From Microlunatus endophyticus (GTDB taxonomy: Bacteria; Actinomycetota; Actinomycetes; Propionibacteriales; Propionibacteriaceae), in the NCBI RefSeq assembly GCF_014646195.1, contig NZ_BMMZ01000005.1, positions 62,001 to 126,000 of the forward strand: DNA of 64,000 bases, read 5' to 3'. Position 1 is the first letter of the stretch. Each line of letters opens with the position of its first letter. The position numbers and the translations under genes are program-made. Below are positions 6,791-18,862 of this stretch, piece after piece. The notes under the pieces were generated by a model. The model was given only the letters and a program-made list of their open reading frames with translations, had not been told where the DNA came from and did not search any database.

Positions 6791-8089
6791 ATGCCATCCA
6801 GCAAGCACTCAGCCACGTCATCGAGCACACCGTCCCCGGCGGTGTGCTCGATCATTCCGTCCTACCTGTTGCAACGCGTCGTCGAGACGTCGGACCGCTC
6901 ACCGCACCCCGGCGAGCGGACCCTGCTGCTCGACGAGCAGCTCCGCGAGAGCCGGTCACGTCGCAGGACCGGCAAGACGGGCACGAAAGCCCGTACCACA
7001 TCTCGCACGAAATCCAGTACGGAACCCAAGTCGCCGGATGCCCAGCGCACCATCGACGATGCCGCCAACAGCGAGACGTTGCCCGGCAAGGCGGCACGCA
7101 AAGCCGGCGATCCGGCGACGGAGGATCCGGCGGTCGATGAGGCCTGGAAGTCCTCGGCCCAGATCTGGGACCTGTACGCCGAGGTCTTCGAGCGCCAGTC
7201 CGTCGACGGCCACGGCTCCGGAGTCACCGTGACGGTGCACTACGGAAATGACTACGACAACGCCTTCTGGGACGGCAAGCAATTGGTCTTCGGCGACGGG
7301 GACGGCGAGGTCTTCGAGCGTTTCACCAAGCCCATGGACGTGATGGCCCACGAATTCACCCACGGCGTCACCCAGGACACCGCCGGCCTGTCCTATGACG
7401 GCCAGTCGGGCGCGCTCAACGAAAGTGTCTCCGACGTCTTCGCCGCGATCTGCACCCAACGGGTGAAGAAGCAGACCGCGGCCAAGGCCGATTGGTTGAT
7501 CGGCAAGGGCATCTTCGTCGAGGGTATCAAGGCCAAGGGCCTGCGATCGATGAAGGACCCGGGTAGTGCGTACGACGACCCGCGGCTGGGCAAGGACCCT
7601 CAGGTCGGCTCGATGTCCGACTACGTCCAGACCACCGATGACAACGGCGGCGTGCACATCAACTCCGGGATCCCCAACAAGGCGTTCCAGCTGGCCGCGA
7701 CCAAGCTCGGCGGCCACAGCTGGGAGCAGGCCGGGCCGATCTGGTATCAGGCGCTCACCGGCGGCGAAGTCACGGCACACACCGACTTCGCCGGCTTCGC
7801 GAAGGCGACCGTCAACGCCGCGACCAAGCTCTATCCCGACGAGCCGAAGATCGCGGCCACGATCACCGCGGCCTGGACCGAGGTCGGCGTGCTCGACAAG
7901 GGCGGCGACAAGGCAGGGCCCCCCGTACGCCACCGGTCCCGCCCCGTCGCGATCGCGCGCGGCAGCGAAATCGCCGGCCGGCCCGGGACCGAGACGGGTG
8001 AATCGATCAAGATCGTCCTCGACAGCGCCGGGCCCGCCAGGCCGCGGGCCCGGAAGCACCCCGGGCCCGCGGCCGGCCGAGGCCGATGA
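6791..8089 (+). CDS. M4-family (protealysin-like) metalloprotease
   Basis: The 432-residue protein is a thermolysin-family zinc protease. The zinc ligands are the two His of HEFTH and the downstream Glu of GALNESVSDVF. The general substrate-binding His is in DNGGVHINSGIPNKAF, and the calcium/structural block AFWDGKQLVFGDGDG precedes them. The short N-terminal motif CSIIPSYLLQRV is the mark of protealysin-type propeptides, and no signal peptide is present. A basic linker (about residues 55-75) joins propeptide and catalytic part. About 60 residues rich in Arg, Pro and Gly extend past the usual C terminus. Protealysin-type genes are often followed by an emfourin inhibitor gene; none is seen here. 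AGGGGG lies 8 nt before the ATG at 6791. Confidence 0.9.
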   Translation: MPSSKHSATSSSTPSPAVCSIIPSYLLQRVVETSDRSPHPGERTLLLDEQLRESRSRRRTGKTGTKARTTSRTKSSTEPKSPDAQRTIDDAANSETLPGKAARKAGDPATEDPAVDEAWKSSAQIWDLYAEVFERQSVDGHGSGVTVTVHYGNDYDNAFWDGKQLVFGDGDGEVFERFTKPMDVMAHEFTHGVTQDTAGLSYDGQSGALNESVSDVFAAICTQRVKKQTAAKADWLIGKGIFVEGIKAKGLRSMKDPGSAYDDPRLGKDPQVGSMSDYVQTTDDNGGVHINSGIPNKAFQLAATKLGGHSWEQAGPIWYQALTGGEVTAHTDFAGFAKATVNAATKLYPDEPKIAATITAAWTEVGVLDKGGDKAGPPVRHRSRPVAIARGSEIAGRPGTETGESIKIVLDSAGPARPRARKHPGPAAGRGR

Positions 8090-8106
8090 CAGAATCCAGC
8101 CATCAC

Positions 8107-8120
8107 GATCACCGGTGATC
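8107..8120. promoter_or_regulatory. 14-bp perfect palindrome, possible operator
   Basis: GATCACCGGTGATC is a perfect palindrome in the 80-nt gap between the M4 protease and the M81 peptidase gene. It is placed where a repressor could act on the downstream gene. No regulator can be assigned. Confidence 0.35.
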
Positions 8121-8169
8121 TTGAACCCAGCAACCTGTCGATCCAACCCGTCCTGGGAAAGGCGTGCCC

Positions 8170-9741
8170 GTGTCCGAAACTCCTCTCGCCTCGCAGATCT
8201 GGTGCGGACCGTTGCCCGCCGTCGAAGCCGGCGGCATCGAAAAGCCCAGGATCGGCATCGGCGGCATGTCGATCGAGGCCAGCACCTATTCACCGCACAT
8301 CAGCGGGCGGGAGGCATTCGCGGTCCGCCGTGGAGAAGAGCTGCTCGGCTACTACCCGTTCTTCACCGGACGCCGGGACGACATCCTCGAGGCCGCGACC
8401 TGGGTGCCGCTGGTGCACGCCCGGTCGCTGCCTGGGGGTGCGGTGGATCCGGACTTCTTCGACTGGGTGAAGAACGAGTTGATCACCGCGGTCCGGGAGT
8501 CGATCGCGGCCGACGGCCCGTTCGACGGCTTCTACTTCGACATCCACGGTGCCATGAGCGTGATCGGCCGGACCGACGCCGAAGGTGATCTTGCGACCGC
8601 GCTCCGGGAGGCGCTCGGCCCGGACACCCTGATGACCACCTCGATGGACCTGCACGGCAATGTGTCCCGCGCCTTGCTGGACGCCACCGATCTGATCACC
8701 TGCTACCGGATGGCGCCGCACGAGGACGCCATGAACACCAAGGAACGCGCCGTCTACAACCTGCTCAGCCGGTTCCGGGCCAGCACCGGATCCGATGTGC
8801 AGGCCCGGCGGCCGTACAAGGCCTGGCGCCCCGTCCCGGTGCTGCTGCCCGGCGAGAAGACCAGCACCCGACTGGAACCGGCCCAGAGCATCTACGCCCA
8901 GGTACCGGTGACCGAGGCGATGGACGGCGTCCTGGACGCGGCGATCTGGGTCGGCTACGCGTGGGCGGACGAGCCGCGCAACCAGTGCGCCGTGGTCGTC
9001 ACCGGTGATGATCAAGGGGTGATAGCCCGCGAGGCCCAGCGGCTGGCCAAGCTCTACTGGGACGCCCGCAAGGACTTCGTCTTCGTCGCCGACGCACTGC
9101 CGTTGGACCAGGCACTCGACGCCGCCCTGGCCGAGGGTGCGCCGCGGCCGTACTTCATCTCCGATTCCGGTGACAATCCGACCGCGGGCGGCACCGGTGA
9201 CGTGTCCTGGACGTTGGGCGAGCTGTTGCAGCGGCCGGAATTCGCCGGTACCGACCACACCGTCATCCATGCATCGATCTTCGATCCGGTCGCGGTCGAC
9301 GCTGCGGTCGCCGCCGGCGTCGGCGGCACGGTCGAGGTCGAGGTCGGCGGCCACGTCGACGGCGGGCCACGCGGGCCGGTACCGATGAAGGCTGAGGTGT
9401 TCTCGATCACCGAGGGCGATCCGACCGCCGGCACCCAGGTCGTGCTGCGCTCGGGTTCGGTCTACGAGATCGTCACCCAGCGCCGCAAGCCCTTCCATCG
9501 GATCACCGACTTCACCGCGCTCGGACTCGATCCGCTGCAGGCCGACATCGTGCTGGTCAAGATCGGCTATCTCGAGCCGCAGCTGTACGAGGCCGCTGCC
9601 GGCTGGAAGCTCGGGCTGACCCCGGGTGGAGTTGATCAAGACCTGCTGCGGCTGCCGCACACCCACCTCGAGCCGGGGGTCTATCCCTTCGACGAGCTCG
9701 ACACCGATCCCGATCTGACCCCGGTCGTCACTCGGCGCTGA
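8170..9741 (+). CDS. M81-family metallopeptidase (MlrC-like)
   Basis: The 523-residue protein belongs to the MlrC/M81 family, named for the enzyme that opens linear microcystin-LR products. Most actinobacterial members have unknown substrates. The N-terminal GGMSIEASTYSP block, the metal-site motifs DIHGAMSV and MDLHGNVS, and YRMAPHEDAMNT are all present in family order, so the active site looks intact. A C-terminal domain with PTAGGTGD and a KIGYLEP segment fits the second family domain. Start choice: GTG 8170 has GGGAAAGG 7 nt upstream; GTG 8164 would lie directly on that site. It follows the M4 protease gene by 80 nt on the same strand. Confidence 0.85.
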   Translation: MSETPLASQIWCGPLPAVEAGGIEKPRIGIGGMSIEASTYSPHISGREAFAVRRGEELLGYYPFFTGRRDDILEAATWVPLVHARSLPGGAVDPDFFDWVKNELITAVRESIAADGPFDGFYFDIHGAMSVIGRTDAEGDLATALREALGPDTLMTTSMDLHGNVSRALLDATDLITCYRMAPHEDAMNTKERAVYNLLSRFRASTGSDVQARRPYKAWRPVPVLLPGEKTSTRLEPAQSIYAQVPVTEAMDGVLDAAIWVGYAWADEPRNQCAVVVTGDDQGVIAREAQRLAKLYWDARKDFVFVADALPLDQALDAALAEGAPRPYFISDSGDNPTAGGTGDVSWTLGELLQRPEFAGTDHTVIHASIFDPVAVDAAVAAGVGGTVEVEVGGHVDGGPRGPVPMKAEVFSITEGDPTAGTQVVLRSGSVYEIVTQRRKPFHRITDFTALGLDPLQADIVLVKIGYLEPQLYEAAAGWKLGLTPGGVDQDLLRLPHTHLEPGVYPFDELDTDPDLTPVVTRR

Positions 9742-9851
9742 AGGTAGAAATCCTCCGAATTCCGCACAAGGGAGCACTCAGGAAACTACGATGTGATGCG
9801 GACGGTTCCGTCGGGGAGAACTGTCCGAAGGGGGCAGGTACGTACGGGCTG

Positions 9852-9868
9852 CCTCCTCTCGGGGGAGG
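9852..9868 (+). promoter_or_regulatory. Hairpin covering the lsr2 ribosome site
   Basis: CCTCC at 9852-9856 can pair with GGAGG at 9864-9868, which is the Shine-Dalgarno of the gene starting at 9875. A small 5-bp hairpin with a 7-nt loop would mask the site and may tune translation. Confidence 0.35.
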
Positions 9869-9874
9869 AAACAA

Positions 9875-10258
9875 ATGGCTCACCGGGTCACTGCCGTTTT
9901 GGTAGATGATCTTGATGGTCACAGCGCTGCAGACGAGACGGTGTATTTCGCTCTGGATGGCCTGAACTACGAGATCGATCTGTCCGACGAGCATGCGGAC
10001 CAGCTCCGCGAGTGTCTGCGTCCGTGGCGGGAACATGCCAGGGTTGTGCCGCAGTCGCGGCGGCAACGTCGTCGCCAAGTCAATCGACAGGCCAACGGTC
10101 AACCGCATCGGGCGATGTCCCGCGTCGACCGCGCGCATGCGCAAGCGATCAGGACCTGGGCGCTGGCCAACGGCCTGCGGGTCTCGGCGCGGGGCAAGAT
10201 CCCGGACGCGATCCATCGGGCCTTCGAAGAGGCCCACGCAGGTGAACGCGTCGCCTGA
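9875..10258 (+). CDS. lsr2: Lsr2-like nucleoid-associated protein
   Basis: The 127-residue protein matches the H-NS-like xenogeneic silencer Lsr2. The N-terminal dimerisation half has VTAVLVDDLDG, ETVYFALDGLNYEIDLS and an acidic turn. A basic linker (about residues 62-80) follows, then the C-terminal DNA-binding part IRTWALANGLRVSARGKIP. The usual AT-hook-like triplet in this part is RGR; here it reads RGK, a conservative change that keeps two basic residues around Gly. The protein would bind AT-rich minor grooves and silence foreign or secretion-related genes. GGAGGAAACAA precedes the ATG. It stands alone, convergent with the response regulator gene. Confidence 0.92.
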   Translation: MAHRVTAVLVDDLDGHSAADETVYFALDGLNYEIDLSDEHADQLRECLRPWREHARVVPQSRRQRRRQVNRQANGQPHRAMSRVDRAHAQAIRTWALANGLRVSARGKIPDAIHRAFEEAHAGERVA

Positions 10259-10275: not shown

Positions 10276-10944
10276 TCAGCTGACGCGGATCAGGCCGGAC
10301 TGGTAGGCCAGGGCCACCACCTGCGCCCGGTCACGCGAGCCGGTTTTCATGATCACCCGCGCGACGTGGGTCTTCACCGTTGCCTCGCTGACGACCAGCT
10401 TCTCGCAGATCTGCCGGTTGGACAGGCCTTGGGCGATCAGGGCCAGCACCTCGAGTTCGCGCGGCGTCAACAGGCTGCGCAGTTCGGCGGCACCGACCCC
10501 GTGATCGGGGACCTGTGAGAGCCGCTCGATGACGCCGCCGGCAATCGACGGATCGAGCCAGGCCTCGCCTGCCGCCACCCGGCGGATGGCCGACGGCAGG
10601 TCCTGCGGCGCCGCATGCTTGAGCAGATAGCCCTGGGCTCCGGCGCGCAGTGCTGGATAGACGGATTCGTCGTCACCGAAGGTGGTGAGCACCAGCACCT
10701 TGGTCGGGCGATCGGGATCAGCCGGGTCGGTCGTGATCCGCCGGGTGGCCTCGATGCCGTCCAGGCCGGGCATCCGCAGATCCATCAACACGACGTCGGG
10801 TGAATGCTCGGCGACCAGTGCCAGGACCTGGTTGCCATCGGCCGCTTCGCCCAGCACGGTGATGTCCGGCTGGGCTGCCAGCAGCATCACGATTCCGGCC
10901 CGGATCAACTCTTGATCATCGGCAACCACGACAGAGATGGACAC
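10276..10944 (-). CDS. NarL/LuxR-family response regulator
   Basis: The 222-residue protein has a receiver domain (about residues 1-120) with acidic residues in VVADDQE, the phospho-acceptor Asp in VVLMDLRMPG, a Thr in VLTTFGDD and Lys in YLLKHA. A C-terminal LuxR helix-turn-helix (about 155-220) reads LTPRELEVLALIAQGLSN and continues ICEKLVVSEATVKTHV. It is the partner of the sensor kinase encoded 102 nt upstream on the same strand. The target genes are unknown. An inverted repeat in the gap (10976-10996) could be its own operator. It ends 17 nt from lsr2, convergently. Confidence 0.95.
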   Translation of the reverse strand: MSISVVVADDQELIRAGIVMLLAAQPDITVLGEAADGNQVLALVAEHSPDVVLMDLRMPGLDGIEATRRITTDPADPDRPTKVLVLTTFGDDESVYPALRAGAQGYLLKHAAPQDLPSAIRRVAAGEAWLDPSIAGGVIERLSQVPDHGVGAAELRSLLTPRELEVLALIAQGLSNRQICEKLVVSEATVKTHVARVIMKTGSRDRAQVVALAYQSGLIRVS

Positions 10945-11046: not shown

Positions 11047-12279
11047 TTACCCCTGGGTCGAGACTGCCTCGACGACAGCCGTACGCATCGACGCGACGGG
11101 GAGCGTGGCACGGACCACGAATCCGCCGGTCGAAAGTTCCTCTGTCTCCAGTCGGCCCCCGACCAGCCGGACCCGTTCGGACAGGCCGGCCAGGCCGTTG
11201 CCGGTGGACAGCACCGCCTGGTCGGAGGCCGCCCCCGCGGCATTGCGGACGGTCAGCACCAGCTGCGGTGGGATCCACTCCATCCCGACCGCTACCTGGG
11301 CACTGGTCCCCGCATACTTGCGGGCGTTGGTCAACGCCTCTTGGACGATCCGGTAGCAGGCCAGCTCCACGCTCGGGTCGAGCTCACCCGGCGAACCGTT
11401 GATCGCCAACTCGACCGTCTGTCCGGACGACCGCGCGGTCTCCAGCAGCTGCGGAAGATCAGAAAGCTGCGGCTGGGTCGCGGTGGTCTGGTCCGTGCCG
11501 TCGGCGCGGAGCACGCCGAGCAGCCGCTGCAGCTCGTTCATCGCCTGGACGCCGGCGCGCTCGATGATCTCCAGGCTCGGCCCGACCTTGGACGGATCCA
11601 GATCCATGATCGCCCGGGCGCCGGCCGCCTGCAGGGTCATCACGTTGACCGTGTGGGAGACGATGTCGTGCAGCTCGTGGCTGAGCATCAGCCGCTCGTC
11701 GCGGCGGGCGATCTCGAGCGCCTGATCATGCTCCCGACGCAGGTCACGGATCCGGGCCAGCGAACGGTAGCGAAAGCGGCCGAAGGACCAAACGGCCACA
11801 GGAAGCACCACGTCAGAAACGACGACTGCGATTACCCAGCTGCCCCAATGCGTCGTGCCGACTGGGCTGCTGTTGACGACCGAAACTCCCAGAACTCCCA
11901 AGGTCGCCACAAGCGCGAGCACCGCACCGTACCGGTGCGCTGCGACAGCTACCCCGTACAAGGCCACGAAAAGGATGCCCACCGGCTGCATATCGGGCGC
12001 GAAGACTGCGCTGAAGCCCACACACCACGCAATGACGAAGGTCAGTGTCGGCCACCGACGGCGCACCACCAGAGCGGCCGCACCGATCAGGATCAACGCG
12101 ACGCCGACTGGCACCGGAAGGAGACCGGCGCCATGCCGCAAGCCGGCGGAGCTGGCATTGAGATATGTCGTCAGATCAAAGGCCCCTGCTGCCGCTGCCA
12201 GGAGAACGTCCAGCCCTGACTGCAGTGCTGGACGGACGGGTCGAGCCGGTCCGGCTCGACCTAGATGGGCGACGGACAC
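11047..12279 (-). CDS. Sensor histidine kinase (NarX/DesK-like, HisKA_3)
   Basis: The 410-residue protein has an N-terminal membrane part with about five hydrophobic helices (residues ~20-170) and very short loops, so it probably senses a signal in or at the membrane. A coiled helix follows, then the dimerisation/phospho-acceptor box SHELHDIVSHTVN (phospho-His about residue 204). The ATPase domain has an N box in QEALTNARKYAG and the G box GNGLAGLSERVRLVGG. The start is set at GTG 12279, 1 nt after the stop of the upstream small gene; a longer open frame exists but would overlap that gene. Membrane topology resembles DesK- and LiaS-type sensors. The partner regulator is encoded directly downstream. 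Confidence 0.9.
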   Translation of the reverse strand: MSVAHLGRAGPARPVRPALQSGLDVLLAAAAGAFDLTTYLNASSAGLRHGAGLLPVPVGVALILIGAAALVVRRRWPTLTFVIAWCVGFSAVFAPDMQPVGILFVALYGVAVAAHRYGAVLALVATLGVLGVSVVNSSPVGTTHWGSWVIAVVVSDVVLPVAVWSFGRFRYRSLARIRDLRREHDQALEIARRDERLMLSHELHDIVSHTVNVMTLQAAGARAIMDLDPSKVGPSLEIIERAGVQAMNELQRLLGVLRADGTDQTTATQPQLSDLPQLLETARSSGQTVELAINGSPGELDPSVELACYRIVQEALTNARKYAGTSAQVAVGMEWIPPQLVLTVRNAAGAASDQAVLSTGNGLAGLSERVRLVGGRLETEELSTGGFVVRATLPVASMRTAVVEAVSTQG

Positions 12280-12280
12280 G

Positions 12281-12676
12281 TCAACACGACTTGCAGAAGT
12301 CGAGGCAGATGACCCGACAGATCCACGGGTCCCCGCCGACCGGCCCGTCATCCTCGCCCAGAGTCTCTTTGATCTCGAAAGCAACGATGCCGGTCTGTGT
12401 CTCGACGAACTCGGCACCCGGCTGCTCGCGGGACGCGATCTCGACCGCCTCGTCGTAGCCGACCAGACCCGGCCGGATCCGGAAGACCTCGTGGTTGCCT
12501 TCCGGGGTCACGATCACGAACTCGCCGGCCTGCCGGGCGACCCGGGACAGCTCCGCGTCGAGCGGCGGCGCGACCTGGACGACCTGAGGATGGATGATCT
12601 TGCCCGTGCCGACGGCCTCGCCGACACTGCCACCGTCGCCCCGGGCGTGGATGGCGACCTCTGAACCAATCTGCAT
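12281..12676 (-). CDS. Unknown 131-residue protein with a CX3CX3CX2C tail
   Basis: I do not recognise a family. The protein is acidic, has no signal peptide or membrane segment, and contains FVIVTPEGNHEVFRIRP followed by a short helix-rich part. It ends in WICRVICLDFCKSC. The last eleven residues hold four cysteines spaced CX3CX3CX2C, the only cysteines in the protein. Such a tail could bind zinc or an iron-sulfur cluster, form disulfides, or be the core of a modified peptide; nothing in the neighbourhood decides this. Its stop lies 1 nt from the start of the histidine kinase, so the three genes (Cys-tail protein, kinase, regulator) form one coupled unit and the protein may act in sensing. 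Confidence 0.6.
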   Translation of the reverse strand: MQIGSEVAIHARGDGGSVGEAVGTGKIIHPQVVQVAPPLDAELSRVARQAGEFVIVTPEGNHEVFRIRPGLVGYDEAVEIASREQPGAEFVETQTGIVAFEIKETLGEDDGPVGGDPWICRVICLDFCKSC

Positions 12677-14925: not shown

Positions 14926-15999
14926 TTACCAACCCGCGTTGCGGGCGAGCTGATCGGCGTACTGGGGCCAGAACTGTCCGGCCTGCGGTTCGTTTCGACC
15001 ACAGTCGCCGTCGGACTCCCCCGGCGGTTTGATCCACAGATAGGCGTCGATGTTCGGGCCCGGCGCGGCGCGCGGTGTCGGTCCGAGCGCGCGACCCTGC
15101 GGGTTGCACCAGTTCTCGTCGCCACCACCGGTCGCCGGCCCGTTGCCGCTGCGACCGGTGTCGATCACGAAACTCTTCCAGCCGACCCGCGACGAGATCT
15201 GCCGGCCGTAGTTGGCGACGTCGTCGGCCTTGAAGAAATTCGACACGTTGAGGGAGAAGCCGCGCGCGTGCGCCACCCCCGCCTCGGAGAGCCGCTTGGC
15301 GGCCTCCTGGGGTGGCAGCCAGTCAACCGTTCCGGCGTCCAGATAGACGGCGGTCCCGTGGACGGCCGACAGCCAGGTGGTGGCCGCCCGCAACAGGTCA
15401 AGGCGTTCGCCCCGCCGGCTGGCCGGCAGATTGTCCAGCAGCCCGAGCGCATCGGGCTCCAGGATCACCGCGACCCCCGGACCGTCGGCGGCGCCACCCT
15501 GCTCCAGCCCCGCCACGAACGCCTTGATCCAAGCGACGTACGCCTCCCCTGACGGTGCACCGCCTGCCGAGTACCCACCACAGTCGCGCAACGGGATGTC
15601 GTACGCGACCAGCGTGGTGACCTGCTGGCGTTCCCTCGCCTGTTTGACGGCCGTCGCGACCTGGTCGGTGAGGGCCTGCCCGGTGGTCGAGGAATCGGCG
15701 AACCAGGTCGCCGTCGGCTGAGCCGCGATCTTGCGCAGCCGTTCGGCCTCACCGGTGTTCCCCGCCTTCTGGGCGGCGGCGGCCGCCGACTGCGCGGCAC
15801 CGTACTGCGGGACATACATGCCGGCATTCCGGAAGGGGGATACCGGTACCGCACCGCTCGGCTTCTCGGGGAAGCTCCACGGTTTGCCCATCCGGTCGGC
15901 CTGCTGCTTGCAGCGCGAGACCGACACCTCCGGACGGGCGGACGCGTCCCCGCGATGCGTCACGATGACGGCAGCAGCGATCACCGCGATCACCACCAT
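14926..15999 (-). CDS. GH6 family glucanase (membrane-anchored or secreted), second copy
   Basis: The 357-residue protein is a glycoside hydrolase family 6 enzyme (beta-1,4-glucanase). Signature 1, IPLRDCGGYSAGG, carries the catalytic acid-region Asp. VAVILEPDALGLL is signature 2, and IKPPGESDGDC with WCNPQGRALG completes the active-site cleft. A single hydrophobic N-terminal segment anchors or exports it. The in-frame sequence just upstream of the ATG at 15999 encodes IVAKRWIVLSSITA, a good signal n-region, with GGAGG nearby but no ATG, GTG or TTG. The true start may therefore be a rare ATC about 14 codons upstream. It is clearly related to the GH6 gene 95 nt upstream, a tandem duplication. 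Confidence 0.88.
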   Translation of the reverse strand: MVVIAVIAAAVIVTHRGDASARPEVSVSRCKQQADRMGKPWSFPEKPSGAVPVSPFRNAGMYVPQYGAAQSAAAAAQKAGNTGEAERLRKIAAQPTATWFADSSTTGQALTDQVATAVKQARERQQVTTLVAYDIPLRDCGGYSAGGAPSGEAYVAWIKAFVAGLEQGGAADGPGVAVILEPDALGLLDNLPASRRGERLDLLRAATTWLSAVHGTAVYLDAGTVDWLPPQEAAKRLSEAGVAHARGFSLNVSNFFKADDVANYGRQISSRVGWKSFVIDTGRSGNGPATGGGDENWCNPQGRALGPTPRAAPGPNIDAYLWIKPPGESDGDCGRNEPQAGQFWPQYADQLARNAGW

Positions 16000-16094
16000 T
16001 GCGGTGATCGACGACAGAACGATCCAACGCTTCGCGACGATGGCCTCCGATCCTCATGGTTGTCAGCGGTTCGGTTCCCAGTGTTCCCCGTTGA

Positions 16095-17219
16095 TCACGC
16101 CACGTACCAGCCGGCGTTGACGGCGAGCTCGTTGGCATAGGACGGGAAGAACTCGCCGGCGGCCGGATCGCCCTTGGCGCAGGAGCCGTCGGACTCGCCC
16201 GGCGGCTTGACCCACACGTAGGCGTCGATGCTGCCGGTCTTGCCCTTCGGGTCGGCCACCGGCTTATGGCCGAGCGCGCGGCCGGAGGGGTTGCAGGATT
16301 CGCCGTTGGCGCCGTTGCCGTTGCGGCTGGTGTCGACGACGTAGTGCTTCCAGCCCAACCGTCCGATCATCTGGTTGCCGTAACTCTCCTCGCCCTTCTC
16401 GGCGTTGAAATTCGCAACGTCGAGAGAGAAGCCGCGCGCCATGCCGAGGCCGGACTTGGACAGCCTGCTGATCATGGTCGAGGTCGAGACCCAGCCGTGG
16501 GTGCCGGCGTCGATGTAGGCCGACGTCTTGGGCGTCCAAGCCAGATTGCGGACGGCGGTCCGGATCAGGTCCATTCGCTCGGTCCGTCGGTTCTCGGGCA
16601 GATTGCCCAGTAGGGCCAGAGCATCGGGCTCGACGATCACCGAGACGCCGGGGCCGCTGGCGACTCCGCCCTTCACCAGTCCGGCACGGAAGGCCTTGAT
16701 CCAGGAGCGGTACGCGCTGGCGGACTTGGCGCCGCCCTCGGAGTAGCCGCCGCAGTCGCGCAGCGGGATCGCGTACATCACCAGGGTGGCGACCTCGCCC
16801 TTGCTGCGGGCCGCGGAGACCACGTCGGCCACCGCGGTGGTCAGGGCCGAACTGCTCATCGAGCCGTCGGTGAACCAGACGGCGCGAGGTTGAGCAGCGA
16901 TCGCCCGCAGTCGCTTGGCCTCAGCGGTGTTGCCGCTGGCCTGGGCCTGGTCGGCTGCGGCCTGGGCCTTGGGGTACGGCGGCACATACATCGACGCCTT
17001 GGTGTACCGGTTGGCCGGTGAGGCCCAGTCATAGTTGGCCGTCGAGTGCCACGGGGCCGGCATCTTGGCCGCCTCGGCCGCGCACGCCGAGCTGACGGCA
17101 TTCGACGGAGCGGCCCCGACCGCGAGCACTCCGGCGGCCAGTGCTGCAGCGGCCAGTGCGCTTCCACCCCTCTTGACAGCTCTTGTGATCATGGTGCGCG
17201 TGATCATGCGTGTGGTCAT
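16095..17219 (-). CDS. GH6 family glucanase (secreted), first copy
   Basis: This 374-residue secreted protein has a signal peptide (Arg/Lys start, Ala-rich core, cleavage near SNAVSSA at about residue 40) and a GH6 catalytic domain. Signature 1 is IPLRDCGGYSEGG and signature 2 is VSVIVEPDALALL. C-terminal blocks VKPPGESDGSC and CNPSGRALG match. Both catalytic regions look intact, so endo- or exo-cleavage of beta-1,4-glucan outside the cell is expected. Its ATG overlaps the stop of the cellulose-synthase-like gene by 4 nt (ATGA). Streptomyces places the GH6 enzyme CslZ in its CslA cellulose locus, and bacterial cellulose operons commonly contain a trimming cellulase. This coupling therefore points to a beta-glucan product. 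Confidence 0.93.
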   Translation of the reverse strand: MTTRMITRTMITRAVKRGGSALAAAALAAGVLAVGAAPSNAVSSACAAEAAKMPAPWHSTANYDWASPANRYTKASMYVPPYPKAQAAADQAQASGNTAEAKRLRAIAAQPRAVWFTDGSMSSSALTTAVADVVSAARSKGEVATLVMYAIPLRDCGGYSEGGAKSASAYRSWIKAFRAGLVKGGVASGPGVSVIVEPDALALLGNLPENRRTERMDLIRTAVRNLAWTPKTSAYIDAGTHGWVSTSTMISRLSKSGLGMARGFSLDVANFNAEKGEESYGNQMIGRLGWKHYVVDTSRNGNGANGESCNPSGRALGHKPVADPKGKTGSIDAYVWVKPPGESDGSCAKGDPAAGEFFPSYANELAVNAGWYVA

Positions 17220-18862
17220 GGTGCGGGGACCAACTCCTTCAGCGGATCGGATTGATCTTCGCCGGGTCGGCCGCTGGTGGACTGCCAGCGCGACTCACCG
17301 GTCGGCAACTCTGCCTTACTGCGCTCCTCCAGGGCGCGCGGTCGTAGGGCCCACGACATGCCGGTCCCCAGCACCACCAGGTGCAGGCCGGCGAACGCCA
17401 CGTTGTTCAACGTTGCGGCGTCCTGGCTCAACAGAACTCCCCGGACGCCCACCACCAGCAGCAGCCCGCAGACCACCAGCCCGGGCCAGACGGTGGCCGG
17501 CTGCCACTGTCCGGCGCCGCCCTTCGGCGTCACCACGAAGCGACCCTTACGCCTGGTGACCACCGAGATCGTCGCGGCGATGTGGATCCAGAAGGATGCG
17601 GCGGACAGGGCGTAGGCGCTGAATTTGTAGACGCCCCCGCCGGCGATGCCGACGATCGCGATCGACAACATGAAATAGGGCGCGAAATGCACCAGGAAGG
17701 TATTCGCCGTCGACGCAGCGACCGGTTGCTCGCCGGTCAGCAGCTTGATCACCGGCAGCGACATGTAGATCATCACCGTCCAGCCGGTCAGGAAGTGCAG
17801 GCTGGACAGCGCGTACTGGCTCTTGATCTTGATCGGGAGTTTCGCTCGCAGTACCCGGCCGACCGCCGACAGACAGCCGCGGGCCCAGCGCAACTGCTGG
17901 CTGGTGTAGGAGGCCATGTCCTCCGGCCCCAGTCCCTGGACCAGCACCTCCGATACGTATTCGGTGTGCCAGCCGCGTTCCTGCATGATCACCGACAGCT
18001 CGAAGTCCTCGGTGATCGAGTGCGTCGGGAAGCCGCCGACGTCGTCCAGCGCCGTACGCCGGAAGACGACGTTGGTGCCACAGCAGAACATCGCGCCGAT
18101 CCGGCTCTTGCCCCGGGCGATGCAGCCGAAGAACAGCGCCTGCTGAGCCCAGGCCGCTGCCGCGACCGGATTGCGGTCGGCATTGGCGTAATACTGCGGA
18201 GTCTGGACGAAGGCCAGCTTCTCGTCGGCGAAGTAGCCCAGGGTCCGACGCAGGAATTCCGGATGTGGTACGTGATCACAGTCCAGCACCAGCACGTAGT
18301 CGCTGTCGGTCATCGCCAGGGCGTTGTTGATGTTGCCCGCCTTGGCGCCGTCGTGTTCGTCGCGAGCGATGTATTCGGCACCGTACTTCCGTGCCAGGGC
18401 AGCGAATTCGGGCGATCCGCCGTCGTCCAGCAGGTAGACGGTCACATCGGCGCCGCGCAACTCCACCGAGGCCGCGATCACCGGCTCGACGATGTCGACG
18501 GGCTCGTTGTAGCGCGGCACGAAGACGTCGACCGACGCGTAGTGTGCCGCCGGCACCGGCGTCTTGCGCGGCCGGTCCGAGAGCATCGTCCACCAGAAGC
18601 CGAGCGCCTGGGCGACGTTGAAGAATTCCGCGAGCAGCAGAAGCCCGTACAGGAAGGGATTCCCGACCCGTTCGGGGTGCAGTAGCCAGCTGAAATACCA
18701 GAATGTGGCCAGGACGTTGAGCAGCACCATCAGCCGGACCAGCCACGGTTCGGGTTGCCGGAGCACGGCGTAGGTGGTGTCGGCGGTCGGACCGGTCAGG
18801 CGATGCCGCGGTCTCGTTGCCAGGGTTGCGTTCGCGGGTGGTGTGATCGGCAGGTCGGACAT
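17216..18862 (-). CDS. Cellulose-synthase-like processive glycosyltransferase (GT2)
   Basis: The 548-residue inner-membrane protein has two N-terminal helices (about 42-62, 70-90), a cytosolic GT-A domain, and four or more C-terminal helices. All processive GT2 marks are visible: DDG (146-148), DCD (194-196), the catalytic-base TED (284-286) and the acceptor motif QQLRWARG (322-329). This is the BcsA/CslA pattern for making and extruding a beta-linked glucan from UDP-glucose or a related donor. No PilZ domain follows the helices, so direct c-di-GMP control as in BcsA is not indicated. It abuts the flippase/GT39 gene (no gap) and overlaps the GH6 gene. The polymer sugar is inferred from the GH6 partners. 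Confidence 0.9.
   Translation of the reverse strand: MSDLPITPPANATLATRPRHRLTGPTADTTYAVLRQPEPWLVRLMVLLNVLATFWYFSWLLHPERVGNPFLYGLLLLAEFFNVAQALGFWWTMLSDRPRKTPVPAAHYASVDVFVPRYNEPVDIVEPVIAASVELRGADVTVYLLDDGGSPEFAALARKYGAEYIARDEHDGAKAGNINNALAMTDSDYVLVLDCDHVPHPEFLRRTLGYFADEKLAFVQTPQYYANADRNPVAAAAWAQQALFFGCIARGKSRIGAMFCCGTNVVFRRTALDDVGGFPTHSITEDFELSVIMQERGWHTEYVSEVLVQGLGPEDMASYTSQQLRWARGCLSAVGRVLRAKLPIKIKSQYALSSLHFLTGWTVMIYMSLPVIKLLTGEQPVAASTANTFLVHFAPYFMLSIAIVGIAGGGVYKFSAYALSAASFWIHIAATISVVTRRKGRFVVTPKGGAGQWQPATVWPGLVVCGLLLVVGVRGVLLSQDAATLNNVAFAGLHLVVLGTGMSWALRPRALEERSKAELPTGESRWQSTSGRPGEDQSDPLKELVPAP

Follow-up and report, generated by a model that had tools for sequence, protein, structure and literature searches.

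A predicted half-trypsin protein with a conserved Trp-Cys tail encoded beside a histidine kinase in Microlunatus endophyticus

The locus and its small gene

The window analysed here is a stretch of 64,000 nucleotides from the actinomycete Microlunatus endophyticus (contig NZ_BMMZ01000005.1, positions 62,001 to 126,000). Its minus strand carries a small gene followed by the genes of a histidine kinase and a response regulator (Table 1). The original prediction, made from the letters of the DNA, had singled out a 131-residue protein of no known family whose only cysteines form a terminal CX3CX3CX2C and whose gene stops 1 nt before that of the kinase. The reading frame and the position of its cysteines (120, 124, 128 and 131) are confirmed. 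The spacing is confirmed as well, taking the likeliest kinase start: the stop codon is followed by a gap of 1 nt and then by a GTG in the kinase frame, and the frame is also open further upstream, where other start codons are present. The 131-residue frame looks like a real gene, because GC makes up 0.72, 0.44 and 0.86 of its first, second and third codon positions and because its differences from a 61%-identical homologue in genome G101 fall mostly on third positions (31, 35 and 57 at the three positions). Tail, kinase and regulator genes would be transcribed together.

Table 1. Features of the module in the window (coordinates are those of the window)
Feature	Position	Strand	Description	Basis
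Half-trypsin / Cys-tail protein	12281..12676	minus	131 aa; stop codon 12281-12283	ORF reading and homologues
Predicted barrel	12347..12667	minus	Residues 4-110; predicted single beta-barrel like the N-terminal barrel of S1 (trypsin-like) proteases	AF2, Foldseek, VIA-align
Trp-Cys tail	12284..12328	minus	Residues 117-131, PWICRVICLDFCKSC; CX3CX3CX2C	Four Cys conserved in 4/4 clade members
Histidine kinase	11047..12279	minus	About six hydrophobic segments, HisKA_3 and HATPase_c; likely GTG start	Pfam, hydropathy
Response regulator	10276..10944	minus	Response_reg and GerE (LuxR type), 222 aa	Pfam, alignment

Clear homologues occur within the genus, in G101 (61% identity), G092 (37%) and G100 (35%), as found by a search of 198 genomes of the bacterial family. 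Two of the four members of the window clade carry one additional cysteine each outside the tail, so that the description "only cysteines" is true for the window protein and its G101 homologue, not for the whole clade.

A kinase-linked family with a conserved tail

Sixteen members of the family were found, 112-181 residues in length and all within one bacterial family. A profile of six kinases run against 195 family genomes listed 29 kinase places at E up to 1e-60, and a small Trp-Cys-tail protein precedes 13 of them: six members of the profile and those in G125, G015, G011, G010, G122, G113 and G114. The other 16 places have no preceding tail protein, G032 among these 16 having its upstream side off the contig. 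The seven new tail proteins had been found by reading upstream frames and were therefore tested with a profile free of kinase information. Built from the 13 tail proteins and run against 195 family genomes, this profile recovered all 13 and added three members (G109, G110 and G112; E 4e-12, 1e-7 and 3e-5), each encoded directly before a kinase gene.

A check with kinase and regulator profiles finds a kinase gene directly behind the tail gene in all 16 members, and a regulator lies near the tail gene in 15; the G112 stretch ends inside the kinase, and the G105 regulator is on the opposite strand. In 12 of the 16 the distance between the tail-gene stop and a kinase start is -1 to 15 nt, and in G105, G122, G010 and G011 the kinase frame opens within the end of the tail gene, its start being unsure. 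The coupled set of Cys-tail protein, kinase and regulator that had been predicted therefore exists and is conserved, and homologues standing apart from kinases, which would have spoken against it, were not found. Also as foreseen, the window kinase is polytopic with short loops, a rough hydropathy count giving six hydrophobic segments (4-6 across six such kinases). In 20 genomes of the genus, kinases 50-73% identical to it were found only in the three other genomes with a tail protein.

In a tree of 60 kinases the 16 tail-linked sequences form one side of a single branch (support 97/84; 98% of 200 bootstraps), so that the division into tail and no tail takes one branch, against a mean of 14.3 changes after shuffling. 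Some clustering is expected because the kinases were picked by their likeness to tail-linked ones; what counts is how cleanly the two groups separate. A quick preliminary tree with 44 rows gives the same picture. The 60-kinase tree leaves out L097, which is frameshifted, and L138, which is too divergent, and it scores L102 as "no tail", yet the upstream side of that locus is off the contig. Its inner order is unsure because of long branches, including that of L101 joined to L092/L093. Of the kinase places at class level, 30 were covered as loci, one being the window's own, and none of the other 29 has a tail protein.

The tail is the part of the protein that the family shares. Among 15 aligned members the invariant columns are the start Met and two tail cysteines, nothing else. 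Both cysteines are kept in all 16 members; homologues without them had been named as evidence against the proposal and did not turn up. Trp precedes the first tail cysteine in 14 of the 15, the window protein having Ile there and its Trp one residue earlier, 14 residues from the C-terminal end. The form W-C-x3-P-x4-C is found in 12 of 16 members and C-x3-C-x3-C-x(1-2)-C in all four of the window clade. The 12 members without the four-cysteine set have a fixed C-x8-C spacing; they include the G106 protein, which carries a third cysteine five residues before the ring pair. Outside the window clade, identity to the window protein drops to 13-21% and the tail is retained, frequently behind a D-, P- or G-rich stretch. 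Invariant columns are concentrated in the tail both in a five-member clade (8/13 against 29/143, p 0.003) and in the window clade (6/15 against 18/115, p 0.03). A Gly-Gly lies just upstream of the window tail (VGG-DPWIC; 12329-12334 of the window, minus strand, in the region of residues 114-115) and is absent in its three clade relatives.

The tail had been thought of as a possible metal sensor. As a general function a four-cysteine metal site is rejected because 12 of the 16 members lack the four-cysteine set; for the window clade, where all four members have it, metal sensing is still a candidate.

Other searches added no member to the family. Scans of genome contigs with the single protein and with query A1 gave 60 and 20 pattern stretches, respectively, and no relative beyond the genus. 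In 391 genomes of the order, query A1 returned the known four genomes and six weak places. Query A3 found its own two genomes only among 197 family genomes, and had no match in 394 class genomes, a set without a known positive and hence uninformative. Plasmids gave no match for two members. Candidates in G048, G069, G076, G084 and G183 (E 2.8e-4 to 0.0097) were dropped as parts of other proteins or opposite-strand frames, one frame per locus being read, as were places in G126, G146 and G061 that matched the 13-protein profile (E 0.004-0.01) and overlap other evident genes.

Predicted fold and known systems

No Pfam or NCBIfam model matches the window protein at cut-off, the best Pfam E-value over 15 family members is 0.099, and a profile search of PDB sequences gave no match up to E 1. 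By sequence, the statement that the protein is of no known family thus holds; by predicted fold it does not, the model resembling half of a trypsin-like protease. An AF2 model from four window-clade sequences reaches pLDDT 82.9 (under 50 at residues 129-131) and pTM 0.79. S1 proteases account for all of the best 50 matches listed by Foldseek against the PDB, the best at E 2.2e-3 and none at or below 0.001. VIA-align superimposes the model on trypsin of S. erythraea (5kwm) with Z 9.0 and rmsd 3.2 over 78 residues, and on plasmin (8f7v_B) with rmsd 2.1 over 73. Most of its rows are confined to the first barrel (about 27-116 in chymotrypsin numbering), and a few take in other parts of the chain as well. 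No strand is predicted beyond residue 102 of 131, and the second barrel, which bears the catalytic Ser in S1 proteases, is absent from the model. We therefore regard the protein, by prediction, as half a trypsin, the first chymotrypsin-fold barrel standing alone. Such a half-trypsin would be catalytically dead. By eye, the sequence alignment of the four clade members has P/P/N/G at what looks like the position of the catalytic His and G/G/D/D at that of the Asp, and no plain catalytic His is seen in the first barrel.

Evidence that the fold extends to a second clade (G114 and four relatives) is weaker. The model has pLDDT 61.9 and pTM 0.61. Foldseek again returns mainly first barrels of S1 proteases, with two rows below 0.001, and chains of PhdC and HupZ also rank. 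The best VIA-align Z is 8.0, near the level of common arrangements. A comparison of the profiles of the two clades aligns the barrel strands with 80.6% probability; the profiles of two other clade pairs align on the tail alone (74.4% and 2.9%).

Some features of the module are familiar from ComX-ComP-ComA (ComQXPA) of Bacillus. There, as described in PMC4008528, the gene directly before that of a multi-TM HisKA_3 kinase encodes a variable precursor that has a Trp close to its C-terminal end, and the Pfam domains of ComP (HisKA_3, PF07730, and HATPase_c) and ComA (Response_reg and GerE) are those of our kinase and LuxR-type regulator. The differences are that the tail of the present module is built on cysteines, that its carrier is a predicted folded half-trypsin rather than the 52-73 residue ComX pre-peptide, and that its kinase has about six hydrophobic segments against 8-10 given for ComP (PMC4008528). 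A Pfam scan found no ComQ isoprenyl transferase (PF00348) among the window neighbours, the other loci being read by eye. With no ComQ among the scanned neighbours and a predicted folded domain as precursor, the window module is not, as modelled, a member of ComQXPA. ComQXPA works through a secreted, modified pheromone; the ligand here is a candidate.

HbpS-SenS-SenR of streptomycetes, which is of another kind, comes closest among three-part systems that include an extra protein. In the account of PMC4991794 the gene of the extra protein is clustered with those of a sensor kinase and a regulator. Redox sensing would fit the cysteines of our tail. HbpS is described as secreted and octameric and as sensing iron and haem stress (PMC4991794, PMC3754957); the half-trypsin, in contrast, has no visible signal peptide and another predicted fold. 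The nitrile hydratase-like leader peptides (NHLP) of ribosomal natural products, described in PMC2887384, are similar in that an enzyme-derived domain without catalytic residues carries a short, cysteine-bearing C-terminal segment. They differ in that the enzyme fold is another, that of the four clade members the window protein alone has the Gly-Gly cleavage motif, and that the fixed partner here is a kinase; linked modification or export genes of the NHLP type were not found among the scanned window neighbours.

The tail as a probable input of the kinase

The half-trypsin tail protein is probably a signal or switch for the adjoining kinase. A hint at which of these it may be comes from a different kind of protein. 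The kinase-free profile of 13 tail proteins gave a weak fourth match in G038 (E 2e-4), a 59-residue Sec-type protein ending FFCPIFPWLPMCHPR, which is encoded directly upstream, on the same strand, of a 737-residue kinase frame in which HisKA_3 is clear; its neighbourhood also includes a divergent regulator and the gene of an ABC ATPase. The peptide has orthologues in G035 and G037 (54% and 52% identity; two of 14 further genus genomes searched), where they too precede a kinase-like gene and a divergent regulator is present, the HisKA_3 match of these partial kinase sequences being below the Pfam cut-off. C-x3-P-x4-C is the terminus of all three Sec-type peptides; the two residues preceding its first cysteine are FF, FF and FI, and the Trp is not kept. 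The shared motif is short, and the three peptides, being orthologous, count as one event. A tail-only model built from 11 half-trypsin proteins was run against 8,194 distinct ORF ends, a set that includes loci brought in by earlier matches. The G038 peptide ranks top among the ends outside the family (E 0.006) and the G035 peptide second (E 0.36), and the G037 peptide (E 1.6) has the same score as an unrelated ORF; the four-cysteine tail of the window clade is at noise level (E 4-5) against this two-cysteine model. The Sec-type peptides adjoin another kinase type, and the two systems may thus share only the motif.

We favour the reading that the tail is a peptide ligand of the kinase, borne on a dead half-trypsin carrier in the manner of ComX-ComP-ComA, and give it a probability of roughly 0.4. 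What chiefly speaks for it is that two carriers of one terminal motif are both found beside kinases. The first barrel would serve as carrier of the short Trp-Cys tail, and the tail would be an input reserved for the polytopic HisKA_3 kinase of the next gene. The tail cysteines would form a small ring, of the type C-x8-C outside the window clade and with four cysteines within it. The tail might then be cleaved and released, or presented outside the cell, where the membrane part of the kinase could read it by binding, and the kinase would pass phosphate to the LuxR-type regulator for some physiological output. Of the functions first suggested for the tail, that of a peptide signal gains support from the Sec-type peptides, which carry the motif beside other kinases.

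Against a ligand stands that no signal peptide is seen, by eye, in the half-trypsin proteins. The same observation suits a cytosolic third component, in which the half-trypsin binds the kinase and the tail acts as a thiol redox switch, as a metal site in the window clade, or as a hydrophobic plug docking in the membrane bundle of the kinase. The tight gene spacing, the retention of a folded domain and the two cysteines at a fixed C-x8-C, which suit a dithiol switch, are all in keeping with such a component, and HbpS-SenS-SenR is a known redox-responding system of three parts with an extra protein (as described in PMC4991794). So is the neighbourhood, which likewise speaks against a ligand, since a reading of the ORF translations by eye showed no gene for export, proteolysis or modification that the loci have in common (about 1.5 kb on each side for G110 and G112; the wider neighbourhoods of G015 (L116) and G109 (L139) were searched for kinase and regulator only). 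Compared with the ligand reading, a redox or docking partner in the cytosol accounts better for the carrier and less well for the Sec-type peptides: it does not predict the same motif behind a Sec-type signal beside kinase-like genes in three genomes, and a metal version meets the further difficulty that most members have no four-cysteine set. We consider the cytosolic component a close rival, somewhat less likely than the ligand.

If the tail were instead the core of a bacteriocin-like ribosomal peptide, with the half-trypsin as enzyme-derived leader, the two-component system would have a regulatory part only. Dead, nitrile hydratase-like leaders do exist (examples in PMC2887384), the Gly-Gly before the window tail would be a fitting cleavage site, one that its three clade relatives do not have, and single loci have suitable genes: a C39 exporter and genes for two small peptides in G010, two ABC transporter genes in G092 and an M50-like gene about 6 kb off in G105. 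None of these was seen to be common to the loci, however, no maturation enzyme occurs among the scanned window neighbours, and the kinase is the one fixed partner, which makes a ribosomal-peptide core unlikely. Least of all do we expect the protein to be the decayed remnant of a protease that travels with the kinase, its tail without a role. A predicted loss of the second barrel, the lack of a plain catalytic His by eye and the low identity over the whole protein are what decay would leave, but the protein end, which should be lost first, is the best-kept part, none of the 16 frames is interrupted before the tail, and between window and G101 genes the third codon positions differ most; decay is thus very improbable.

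To our knowledge, actinomycetes have few known systems of peptide signalling. That a like tail ends short, secreted-type peptides beside other kinases hints at undescribed peptide communication, and we tentatively raise the idea, itself rather doubtful, of a new actinobacterial class of peptide pheromones: cysteine rings of about ten residues (C-x3-P-x4-C after an aromatic residue, or with four cysteines), read by polytopic HisKA_3 kinases and delivered on two carriers, a Sec signal in some species and a dead half-trypsin leader, exported by some route, in others. A search of open-licence PMC literature with narrow terms brought up no account of a half-trypsin or of a Trp-Cys-tailed protein beside a kinase, and the module is a conserved, kinase-bound one that is described by no family model or open-licence paper found, with a mechanism that we propose. 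With a short, synthesizable candidate ligand and its cognate kinase encoded side by side, reading of the peptide by the kinase is directly testable. If true, a protease fold would have been halved and reused as carrier or partner of a sensor kinase.

A rough rule for Sec-type cysteine peptides near other kinases, applied to 78 kinase loci, found none with the canonical ring, and several of its other matches look non-coding. One of its matches, a 50-residue Sec-type peptide of G105 (C120) ending SPLCGVCHGG (L027:947-1099, minus strand), is divergent from the nearest outgroup kinase of the tail-linked kinases. A predicted 60-residue, cysteine-rich Sec-type peptide with the end GCEWPRLPW (L117:8220-8402; no Pfam match) lies beside the G122 module. 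Two near-identical frames of 77 residues (L063:3392-3625 and L065:550-783), with a hydrophobic start and an end like ..LPQWC.(7-8)..C.PGG, are on the strand opposite two class-level kinases. The 737-residue frame behind the G038 peptide (L138:4835-7048, minus strand) seemingly holds two kinase units, the first, by eye, without the usual His in its "ELHD"-like box.

The C39-peptidase ABC exporter and the two small peptide genes of G010 lie just before the tail gene (L118:5453-8281); the two peptides have a common stretch like (A)AF/EF..GG.CTVTI and match no Pfam family. In G092 the ABC transporter genes come after the regulator, and the M50-like gene near the G105 module (L051:2357-5678; Pfam match below cut-off) is followed by that of a 704-residue TPR protein. 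Genes for an M4 thermolysin-like protease, an M81/MlrC protease and Lsr2 adjoin the window module (6791-10258), and look-alikes of the two proteases are also encoded near the G101 module, judging from translations. Further off, at 14926-18862 on the minus strand of the window, are two adjacent genes for GH6 glycosyl hydrolases, with a cellulose-synthase-like glycosyltransferase gene upstream on the same strand.
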